Positions 13,843-26,844 of a DNA stretch of 34,950 nucleotides are shown here, piece after piece (position 1 is the first letter of the stretch; each line of letters begins with the position of its first letter). The notes below the pieces were generated by a model. The model did not search any database. It was not told where the DNA came from and saw only the letters and a program-made list of their open reading frames with translations. A program made the translations under genes and the position numbers. This stretch comes from Acidobacteriota bacterium (lineage in GTDB: Bacteria; Acidobacteriota; Aminicenantia; UBA2199), in NCBI GenBank assembly GCA_025456175.1, contig JALOLC010000004.1, positions 1 through 34,950 on the forward strand, in the 5' to 3' direction.

Positions 13843-13929
<87 letters not shown>

Positions 13930-13979: not shown

Positions 13980-14077
13980 GGCCCAGGAACCCGGCGGTGC
14001 GGGCCCGCGAACCTTGCCAGGACCGGAAGGTAGCAGCAATAAGCGGGACCCCGCAGGTGACCGGGAGCTCCTGGGCC
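13980..14077 (+). ncRNA. ffs: bacterial signal recognition particle RNA (4.5S type)
   Basis: GCCAGGACCGGAAGGTAGCAGC apical motif with closing GGCCCAGGA/TCCTGGGCC stem; between tRNA-Ser and dnaX as in other bacteria. Confidence 0.93.
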
Positions 14078-14095
14078 TTTAAAACGAGATAAACC

Positions 14096-19156: not shown

Positions 19157-19260
19157 GTCGAACTCTGGTTAAAAGTGAAGCAAACCTCTTCTATTTCCAC
19201 CACTCTTGACATTTTCCCTTGCTCTAAGCCTAACACCCTCAACCCTGGACCCTATACCCT
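19157..19260. repeat. heptamer element E: right array of four 7-nt units (19232-19259), weak left array (GTCGAAC, GTTAAAA, GTGAAGC at 19157-19181)
   Basis: AACACCC TCAACCC TGGACCC TATACCC; reverse complement GGGTATA GGGTCCA GGGTTGA GGGTGTT. Confidence 0.7.
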
Positions 19261-20546: not shown

Positions 20547-20575
20547 TTTATAATACAATCGCACCTGTTTTGCAA
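20547..20575 (-). promoter_or_regulatory. predicted promoter TTGCAA-N17-TATAAA of the aminotransferase
   Basis: Reverse complement of 20570-20575 and 20547-20552. Confidence 0.55.
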
Positions 20576-20598
20576 GGTCCCGGGGATTCTGATGCGCT

Positions 20599-20719
20599 CG
20601 GTGTACGGTTGACGGTATAGGGTGGACGGTAAACGGTGGAGGAAAGCGGCAATTTTTCGTTATTGTGTCGTTTGTTCCAGATTTCTTACCATATACCGTA
20701 CACCGTACGCCGTGAACCG
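20599..20719. repeat. heptamer element B: inverted arrays, six CGGTNNA units left, five TNNACCG units right
   Basis: Left 20599-20640 CGGTGTA CGGTTGA CGGTATA GGGTGGA CGGTAAA CGGTGGA; right 20685-20719 CTTACCA TATACCG TACACCG TACGCCG TGAACCG. Confidence 0.9.
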
Positions 20720-20750
20720 AGATCTTCCTGAATGATGAACCGCGAATCTT

Positions 20751-20778
20751 TTGCAAAACGCCCATATTCTGATATATT
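20751..20778 (+). promoter_or_regulatory. predicted promoter TTGCAA-N16-TATATT, -10 ends 6 nt before ATG
   Basis: Hexamers 20751-20756 and 20773-20778. Confidence 0.5.
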
Positions 20779-23501: not shown

Positions 23502-23522
23502 GAAATTAAGACAGAAATCGTT

Positions 23523-23671
23523 ATACGTGACGCGTGACGCGAAACGCGTAAAAAAAACTGCTTTATTGAAATTATCGGAAGGCTGAAAAATAATGCAATC
23601 ATGTTGCGTGCTGAAAGATATAGAGATTAATAATTGAGTTCATCTCTTCCGCGTCACGCGTTACGTGTTAT
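23523..23671. repeat. heptamer element C: inverted arrays of GTGACGC-type units around an AT-rich core
   Basis: Left acgtgacgcgtgacgcg (23525-23541) is complementary at 16/17 positions to cgcgtcacgcgttacgt (23650-23666); 108-nt core. Confidence 0.9.
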
Positions 23672-25080: not shown

Positions 25081-26715
25081 ATGAACAGGGAGAAGCGGTC
25101 CGGCATGCCCGAATGGCAGGCGCTGAAGAATCACGCGCAAAAAATAAACGGTCTGCATCTCTGCGAGCTGTTTGCCGCCGATCCCATACGGGGAAGCCGC
25201 TTCGCGGCCGAGGGCGCGGGCATCTACCTCGATTATTCCCGCAATCAGATCACCAGCGAGACCATGGAGCTGCTCCAGGCGCTGGCCCGGGCCTGCCGGC
25301 TCGGGAAAGAGATCGCCAGGCTGTTCGCGGGCGAAAAGATCAACGAAACCGAGAACCGTCCCGTGCTGCACTGGGCGCTGCGCGACTTCTCCGGACTGCC
25401 GGTCATGGTGGACGGCCAGGATGTCATGCCCCGGGTGCGCCAGGTGCGCGAGCGCATGGCCGCGGCCGCCGGGAGGATTCGCGCCCGAGGCTGGCTGGGC
25501 TGCAGCGGCAAGCCCCTGAGCCATGTAGTCAACCTGGGTATCGGCGGCTCCGACCTGGGGCCGCGCATGGCGTACAAGGCTCTGCGCTTTTACGCCCAGC
25601 GCGACCTCCATTTTCATTTTGTCTCCAACCTTGACCCCGGGCACCTGGCGGAAACCCTGCGGCCGCTGCCCCCCGAAGAGACCCTTTTCATCATCGCCTC
25701 CAAGACCTTCACCACCCAGGAGACCATGGCCAACGCCGCCGCGGCCCGCTCCTGGCTCATGGAGCATTACCAGGACCCAATTGCCCTGCGCGCCCATTTC
25801 GCCGCCGTGACCGCCAACCCGGCGGCGGCACATGACTTCGGCATCGCCGCCGAGAACATTTTTGAATTCTGGGAGTGGGTGGGGGGGCGCTATTCCCTCC
25901 TCTCGGCGGTGGGGCTGCCGCTGATGATGGCTGTCGGGCCCGAACGCTTCGAGGAGCTGCGGCGCGGCTTCTGGGAAATGGACAGCCATTTCCGCGACGC
26001 GGCCTTCACCGCCAACCTGCCGGTTCTGCTCGCCCTGCTGGGGATCTGGCAAGCCGGCTTCATGGGACGGAGCACCCATGCCGTGCTGCCCTACGACCAG
26101 TACCTGGAGCGCTTCCCGGCCTACCTGCAGCAGCTGGAGATGGAGTCGAACGGCAAGGACGTCGACCGCAACGGCGAGGAAGTCGATTACCCGACCGGGC
26201 CGGTGCTTTGGGGCGAGCCCGGCACCAACGGCCAGCATGCGTTCTATCAGCTCCTGCACCAGGGCACGCCGGCCGTTTCCTGCGACTTCATCGGCCTGCG
26301 CCGGTCGCTGAACCCGTTCCGCGACCACCATGAACAGCTGCTGGCCAACATGATCGCCCAGGGGCAGGCGCTGGCCTTCGGCCGCGACCGCGAGGAGCTG
26401 GAGCGGGAAGGCGTGCCCGCGACGCAGCTGCCTTTCCGCGTGTTCTCCGGCAACCGCCCCAGCAACACCATCCTGGCCGACGAACTCAATCCCTCGACCT
26501 TGGGGCGGCTCATCGCCCTCTATGAGCACAAGGTCTTCGTCCAGGGGGTGATCTGGAACATCTTCTCCTTCGACCAGTGGGGGGTCGAACTCGGCAAGAA
26601 ACTGGCCAACCGCATCCTGCCGCGACTCAAGGGGCAGGCCGCGCCCGGGTCGGATGAGGACAGCTCGACCCGGGCCTTAATCGACTATGTGAGCGCAGTG
26701 AAACGTGAACAGTGA
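25081..26715 (+). CDS. pgi: glucose-6-phosphate isomerase
   Basis: VVNLGIGGSDLGPRMAYKAL, SKTFTTQETMANA, FDQWGVELGKKLA. Confidence 0.96.
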   Translation: MNREKRSGMPEWQALKNHAQKINGLHLCELFAADPIRGSRFAAEGAGIYLDYSRNQITSETMELLQALARACRLGKEIARLFAGEKINETENRPVLHWALRDFSGLPVMVDGQDVMPRVRQVRERMAAAAGRIRARGWLGCSGKPLSHVVNLGIGGSDLGPRMAYKALRFYAQRDLHFHFVSNLDPGHLAETLRPLPPEETLFIIASKTFTTQETMANAAAARSWLMEHYQDPIALRAHFAAVTANPAAAHDFGIAAENIFEFWEWVGGRYSLLSAVGLPLMMAVGPERFEELRRGFWEMDSHFRDAAFTANLPVLLALLGIWQAGFMGRSTHAVLPYDQYLERFPAYLQQLEMESNGKDVDRNGEEVDYPTGPVLWGEPGTNGQHAFYQLLHQGTPAVSCDFIGLRRSLNPFRDHHEQLLANMIAQGQALAFGRDREELEREGVPATQLPFRVFSGNRPSNTILADELNPSTLGRLIALYEHKVFVQGVIWNIFSFDQWGVELGKKLANRILPRLKGQAAPGSDEDSSTRALIDYVSAVKREQ

Positions 26716-26826
26716 AAAGTGAAAGGGGAAGGAAATCTCGGGATCGATTGTCGGTGAATTCCGCTTACCAAATCGCTTCATTCGCGGGGCGTATGGCTCC
26801 TTCACTTTTCACTTTTTACTTTTCAC
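26698..26826. repeat. heptamer element D: inverted arrays of GTGAAAN units
   Basis: Left 26698-26725 GTGAAAC GTGAACA GTGAAAA GTGAAAG; right 26799-26826 CCTTCAC TTTTCAC TTTTTAC TTTTCAC. Confidence 0.9.
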
Positions 26827-26844
26827 TTTATCTTTTGCTATAAT
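26815..26844 (+). promoter_or_regulatory. predicted promoter TTTACT-N18-TATAAT, -10 ends 6 nt before ATG
   Basis: -35 lies within the right heptamer array; TATAAT 26839-26844. Confidence 0.55.

Follow-up and report, generated by a model that had tools for sequence, protein, structure and literature searches.

What kind of sequence sets two facing arrays of degenerate heptamers between the promoters of two divergent genes? The arrays in question, here called element B, were noticed in a 34,950-nt stretch of DNA (the window) on letters alone, and were taken for an interspersed element of a kind other than CRISPR, REP or a familiar IS end. We compared the locus with the rest of its genome, with its congeners and with published repeat systems. 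Element B belongs to a large family of short repeats that are dispersed through the genomes of a genus of uncultured Candidatus Aminicenantes (Acidobacteriota), the group in which named relatives place this genome. Genomes and loci are cited below by our own G and L numbers.

Two facing arms in a divergent gap

Element B lies, as first described, in an intergenic region from which the two neighbours diverge, a class I/II aminotransferase gene (minus strand) and an EamA transporter gene (plus strand). Its left arm consists of six units in perfect 7-nt register (CGGTGTA, CGGTTGA, CGGTATA, GGGTGGA, CGGTAAA and CGGTGGA), in agreement with the original prediction except that the fourth unit begins with G rather than C. 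The right arm had been read as five units. Four of these are clear (TATACCG, TACACCG, TACGCCG and TGAACCG, with G replacing A in one), but the fifth, CTTACCA at 20685-20691, fails at two fixed positions, which makes the count of five generous. The core, previously drawn as 44 nt (20641-20684), is better set at 51 nt with this worn unit included (Table 1). A search for three consecutive units with at most one mismatch gave six matches in the window, every one within the arms of element B, and no matches across 100 dinucleotide-preserving shuffles of the window.

Table 1. Positions of the heptamer arrays and adjoining features in the window
Feature	Position	Strand	Remarks
Element B, whole	20599-20719		121 bp; no ORF of at least 100 aa within
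Element B, left arm, six CGGTNNA heptamers	20599-20640	+	sequence reading; unit 4 is GGGTGGA
Element B, core	20641-20691	.	51 nt; 44 nt if the worn unit at 20685-20691 is assigned to the arm
Element B, right arm, four TNNACCG heptamers	20692-20719	-	one is TACGCCG
Outer flank motif, left arm (GCGCT)	20594-20598	+	family consensus G-M-A-M-T, abutting the first unit
Outer flank motif, right arm (AGATC; GATCT read outward-in)	20720-20724	-	abuts the outermost unit
Promoter-like site, aminotransferase gene (TTGCAA, 17 nt, TATAAA)	20547-20575	-	read from sequence
Promoter-like site, EamA gene (TTGCAA, 16 nt, TATATT)	20751-20778	+	conserved in L059
Facing CGTRACG element	23518-23670	.	left array 23526-23552, right array 23652-23665
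Facing AGTGAAA element	26695-26836	.	between PGI stop codon and UbiA gene/promoter
Single GGGTNNA-class arm	19239-19259	-	adjoins aminotransferase stop codon; conserved in several congeners

The element is situated between the two -35-like boxes, TTGCAA being present in both promoter-like sites, and the TTGCAA and TATTATAAAT blocks on the aminotransferase side are kept across orthologues. The orthologous core in L059 is homologous to that of element B yet diverged from it (31/51 identical). No terminator-like site (G+C-rich stem followed by a T run) was found between 20400 and 20900. An Rfam scan of the window returned only SRP RNA and two tRNAs and no family at element B; the SRP RNA is of the bacterial small type (13981-14079) and has a tRNA just upstream (13843-13929). 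The window also carries a direct repeat of a non-heptamer kind (33-bp unit, 2.4 copies, 95% match) at 1648-1726. The exclusions made at first sight hold. The 7-nt units are contiguous and lack spacers, whereas CRISPR repeats are at least 20 nt long and alternate with unique spacers; there is no palindromic 20-40-bp unit with a GTAG or CGTC tag, as in REP; and the ends match no IS that we recognise.

Heptamer classes and their distribution in the genus

The exact three-unit CGGTNNA pattern has 27 matches in this genome (G000, a 2.19-Mb draft) and is present in 15 of the 16 genus genomes, with a maximum of 171 matches in G001; the only member without one, G011, is a draft of 76% completeness. 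Outside the genus, 84 genomes from the family and class were searched, and none had the pattern. A reversed-pattern control gave zero matches in this genome and in every other genus member. Nearly all control hits came from a heptamer that belongs to a sister genus, TGGCANN (three units, 177 matches in the 10.4-Mb genome G033, e.g. L100-L109), which is missing from two of the three congeners searched. Further copies are thus plentiful, contrary to the refuting condition set at the outset, and shuffled sequence does not reproduce the arrays, which supports the original observation; with the small corrections given above, the facing arrays are confirmed. The accompanying interpretation, an interspersed element rather than simple slippage of a single repeat, is likewise supported by the genome-wide copies and by their orientation.

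That orientation is strict: the distinct CGGT pairs comprise 31 that face inward, and outward-facing pairs are absent. The distance between arms is bimodal (24-75 nt and 136-310 nt), and the long-spaced elements that we inspected contain a nested array of another class. Short-core copies share their arms, and their cores mostly fail to align. Each element has one layout, namely two inward terminal arrays of a single degenerate class, a short variable core and a conserved outer motif. The latter is seen in the five bases outside the first unit: in 77 distinct CGGT arrays these are G (79%), A/C, A (74%), A/C and T (84%); the conservation of G-M-A-M-T implies that the element has defined ends. 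The original description of the unit as fixed CGGT..A with a variable NN pair stands in part. NN does vary, but not freely, as only 4% of units have C at position 5 and 82% have G or T at position 6, and the unit is better written CGGTDKA. In two diverged orthologous pairs, fixed positions are 81/90 identical, NN positions 21/36 and core positions 55/84; this contrast comes from two elements, since two closer orthologous pairs are near-identical all along. The comparison suggests that CGGT..A may be what matters.

CGGT is one heptamer class among several. Lag-7 self-similarity in 400 kb of the congener G015 marked 27 regions, while lags 5, 8, 10, 11 and 13 marked 1-3 regions in the same stretch and a Markov simulation 3. 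This unbiased scan returned CGTRACG, AGTRACR, AGTGAAA, AGAYGTY, GTTCGAN, GTTCCAN and CCAAATY beside CGGTDKA; AAAGGCA, GGGTNNA and TTGAAGN were found elsewhere. These genomes hold at least nine further classes laid out in this way, most of them just downstream of stop codons, and the genus has about ten, counted with class boundaries that we set ourselves; certain classes are only one or two bases apart, so that they may be related. Same-class neighbours of the other classes face inward in 23 cases and outward in 2, both outward cases lying between tandem copies (CGTRACG was used for these counts, CGTNACG being its own reverse complement). Two further facing elements in the window represent such classes (Table 1), and the CGTRACG element, directly after an S49 peptidase gene, has a left arm conserved in the congener L062. 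The GGGTNNA arm beside the aminotransferase stop codon is one base off the CGGTNNA class. In the gap between the EamA and S49 peptidase genes, L059, L060 and L056 carry, in comparable positions, facing arrays of 6-nt units (e.g. CACTAT/CACTAC with GTGATAGTG), which suggests that seven is not the sole period.

Turnover and placement of the arrays

A composite form with CGGT arrays outside and CCAAATY arrays inside (about 280-300 bp) occurs as dozens of dispersed copies, about 68-93% identical, in G001, G008, G015 and this genome. Homology between copies generally stops around 14 nt beyond the first unit. These dispersed composites show that elements have spread. One of them (L160:9823-10093 and G015 C5:247710-247986) is an orthologous pair in which the cores share 98% identity and the flanks 87%, possibly as a result of gene conversion or recent transfer.

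The comparison of orthologous gaps that had been proposed for finding insertion boundaries revealed changed and replaced sites. At the element B gap, the CGGT element is common to this genome and L059; L056, L058, L061, L062 and L065 have CGTRACG arrays or their remnants, L057 and L060 mixtures of classes, and L089 no array. The gap that holds the AGTGAAA element in the window has AGAYGTY arrays in G015 (L198), and further orthologous gaps differ in class between G001 and G015. The clearest case is a convergent gap between permease and phosphofructokinase-like genes. Its flanks are 98% and 95% identical between G008 and G015, yet the stop-to-stop interval is entirely different: G015 has AGTGACR arms and G008 has worn CGGT arms enclosing newer CGTRACG, CCAAATT and CGGT arrays, while in G002 the gap contains a CGGT pair that is intact. 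Orthologous gaps thus change their array content more quickly than the genes beside them diverge, and elements are nested in one another. The flank comparisons yielded no perfectly clean empty site, and none was clean enough for a target-site duplication to be read.

We surveyed placement in 720 kb with gene calls from a simple script. None of the 89 class-assigned arrays lies well inside a called gene. Arms are found more often beside gene 3' ends than beside 5' ends (54 versus 28, P = 0.005) and more often in convergent than in divergent gaps (25 versus 5, P = 0.0003); many start less than 20 nt from a stop codon, often at 0-17 nt. Since 3' ends and convergent gaps are favoured, element B, in a divergent gap, is unusually placed for its kind.

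Such a bias could be expected of a selected 3'-end element, for instance a bidirectional terminator, an mRNA-stabilising hairpin or a protein-binding insulator, whose class could be exchanged without loss of function. Besides the two placement biases, occupation of one gap by some class in many species would fit this explanation. Occupancy is incomplete, however, as arrays are absent in L089 and in the 21-bp gap of L060, and insertions that avoid promoters would yield an equal 3' bias. Folding is strong for the composition (z of -3.9 to -7.8 for the elements, -3.0 for element B folded as DNA and compared with shuffled sequence), but facing arrays produce such a fold by themselves. We found no NN covariation that would favour pairing, in any register, after related copies had been removed. 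An apparent NN anti-complementarity between arms (z about -4 in the outer register) shrank to P = 0.05 after deduplication and to P = 0.2-0.3 against a within-element null; this mismatch is an artefact, the permutation null being inflated by related copies whose two ends are unlike, and we claim neither NN pairing nor its avoidance. Finally, element B lacks a terminator-like site and has a promoter on either side, a setting in which a function at gene 3' ends would be meaningless. We regard a selected 3'-end function as an unlikely account of the family.

What may spread the arrays, and their known relatives

We suggest, with about an even chance of being right, that element B and its family are non-autonomous, foldback-like mobile elements, in which the terminal inverted repeats are multimerised recognition sites. 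The strict inward orientation, the dispersed composites, the conserved outer motif at both ends and the nesting argue for this reading. So does class turnover, both at the gap with near-identical flanks and at the other orthologous gaps, and so may the conservation of fixed positions in diverged orthologues. Two classes vary in abundance independently between species (171 CGGT and 10 AGTRACR matches in G001, 59 and 224 in G003; CGGT is high in G001, G008 and G013, AGTRACR in G003, G014 and G015), as expected of separate expansions. Under the mobile-element reading, each heptamer would be one binding site for a recombinase or transposase acting in trans, which would recognise CGG T..A and leave NN unread. 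Several copies in 7-nt register might lend so short a site enough specificity, as has been proposed for Foldback and Galileo in flies. Copies hitting coding DNA or promoters would be purged, and survivors would accumulate after stop codons and also between divergent promoters, as with element B; new copies would nest in old ones or replace them.

Our search for a mobiliser did not support any of the six transposase or reverse transcriptase families considered. CGGT arm pairs 1-4 kb apart, inspected as possible autonomous copies, bracket ordinary or housekeeping genes (translations were judged by eye), and no array pair surrounds a transposase gene, as in a parent IS, in about 1.1 Mb. Searches for Y1_Tnp, RVT_1, DDE_Tnp_1, rve, Transposase_mut and Transposase_20 gave nothing in G003, which is array-rich and 93% complete, and a single match, to Y1_Tnp, in this genome. 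Reverse transcriptase, DDE_Tnp_1, rve, Transposase_mut and Transposase_20 were thus rejected as mobilisers on their absence from both genomes. These absences are weak evidence, because draft metagenome assemblies lose IS elements. Still, the missing autonomous copy and the failure of any of the six families to track the arrays count against mobility, as does the retention of period 7 over unrelated heptamers, a feature that one enzyme with a single sequence specificity would not account for.

Y1 tyrosine transposases of the RAYT type move REP/REPIN elements, which the arrays resemble in being intergenic, paired, oriented and biased to 3' ends, and Y1_Tnp genes are present in 15 of the 16 genus genomes. 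However, the unit of the arrays is a tandem heptamer, where REP elements have a palindrome and a GTAG/CGTC foot (PMC3733652); a tag tetranucleotide and a linked RAYT are likewise lacking. Y1_Tnp counts do not track array counts: G003 has 283 array hits over the two classes and no Y1_Tnp match. A facing array pair adjoins a Y1_Tnp gene at only 1 of 30 loci (L140, a CGGT pair upstream of the gene). Being unlinked to the arrays and absent from an array-rich genome, RAYT was discarded as the mobiliser, and we consider REP/REPIN-like elements moved by it highly improbable.

The lack of a tracking family among the six searched keeps an enzyme-free origin alive. Arrays might lengthen and shorten by polymerase slippage in steps of 7 nt; template switching at fold-backs might pair them, and their spread might be due to ectopic gene conversion or to microhomology-mediated repair, with the period set by the polymerase or repair machinery. 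For over-represented bacterial heptamers, such an origin is a proposal of Mrazek and co-workers, as cited in PMC4692102 and PMC4679880. A period that stays constant while the sequence is free, orthologues separated by whole-unit (7-nt) indels, and local tandem duplicates (C5:38128-38614; L163) are all in line with it. However, template switching predicts outward pairs as often as inward ones, against 0 of 31 observed, and arms are replaced jointly with the core. The NN series of the two arms do not match each other, hence the arms are not recent fold-back copies. Moreover, a small set of heptamer classes is common to the genus and not invented anew at each site. Overall, this origin appears rather unlikely to us.

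Known repeats offer partial precedents. Likeness to the STRR of filamentous cyanobacteria, noted at the outset, is restricted to unit length and to the intergenic, tandem heptamer form. STRR occur in several classes per genome. The TAACTGA repeats of Beggiatoaceae, also intergenic tandem heptamers, are nearly all in a single orientation just upstream of start codons, with one inverted pair among 170 sets (MacGregor 2015, PMC4679880), unlike the facing arms around a core described here. The nearest published case is that of Xanthomonas, in which each genome has 70-75 convergent pairs of (GGGANTN)n arrays close to stop codons (Rehm et al. 2015, PMC4692102). Those arrays are rarely found between divergent genes, and two species have them in corresponding gaps, the arrays themselves having changed; their function was left open by the authors, who favoured G-quadruplexes, and the related Nostoc repeats read GGGGA(C/T)T (PMC4692102). 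The Aminicenantes arrays share with both a degenerate heptamer in which some positions are fixed and others free, a usual length of about four units, and an intergenic location near stop codons, including convergent pairs. They differ from Xanthomonas in sequence, which is not of the G-tract type (the CGGT unit has GG only, and GGG appears solely in isolated GGGTNNA units, so that the CGGT class cannot make G-quadruplexes as proposed there), in the coexistence of about ten classes in one genus, in facing pairs as the rule in all classes examined, and in nested composites, class replacement at orthologous sites and a conserved outer motif.

In architecture, there is a parallel with Foldback and Galileo of Drosophila, whose repetitive ends contain several binding sites for the transposase, which are believed to give it specificity (Marzo et al. 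2013, PMC3688188). Here too, tandem direct repeats make up the terminal inverted repeats, and the middle is variable; in those elements, the middle may also be absent. The resemblance is one of architecture only: Foldback and Galileo are eukaryotic, much larger and have a known P-superfamily transposase, whereas neither a transposase nor a target-site duplication was found for the Aminicenantes elements. As small, non-coding, intergenic repeats with terminal inverted repeats, the latter also resemble prokaryotic MITEs, and the composite form occurs in many dispersed copies sharing ends and core. Unlike MITEs, they end in tandem arrays rather than unique sequence, and no parent IS was found in the roughly 1.1 Mb inspected. 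Our literature search, with most subscription journals and all preprints outside it, retrieved no paper that describes arrays in Aminicenantes, the co-residence of many classes or the replacement of one class by another.

Tentatively, the elements could form a radiating bacterial foldback-like superfamily, in which the 7-nt period and inward orientation are conserved and the "word" changes, with about ten co-resident classes competing for gene-end niches and spread by a possibly transposase-independent machinery that reads sevens; we hold this to be possible but doubtful. Over-represented heptamer repeats have been noted in bacteria for years. Here a single genus offers about ten heptamer classes with an identical paired, inward layout, 95-98%-identical flanks around a replaced element, and genomes almost free of known transposases. 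Whether such repeats are mobile elements, by-products of replication or gene-end signals is thus directly testable in this genus of Aminicenantes, in which the array content of intergenic regions can outpace synonymous change in the neighbouring genes.
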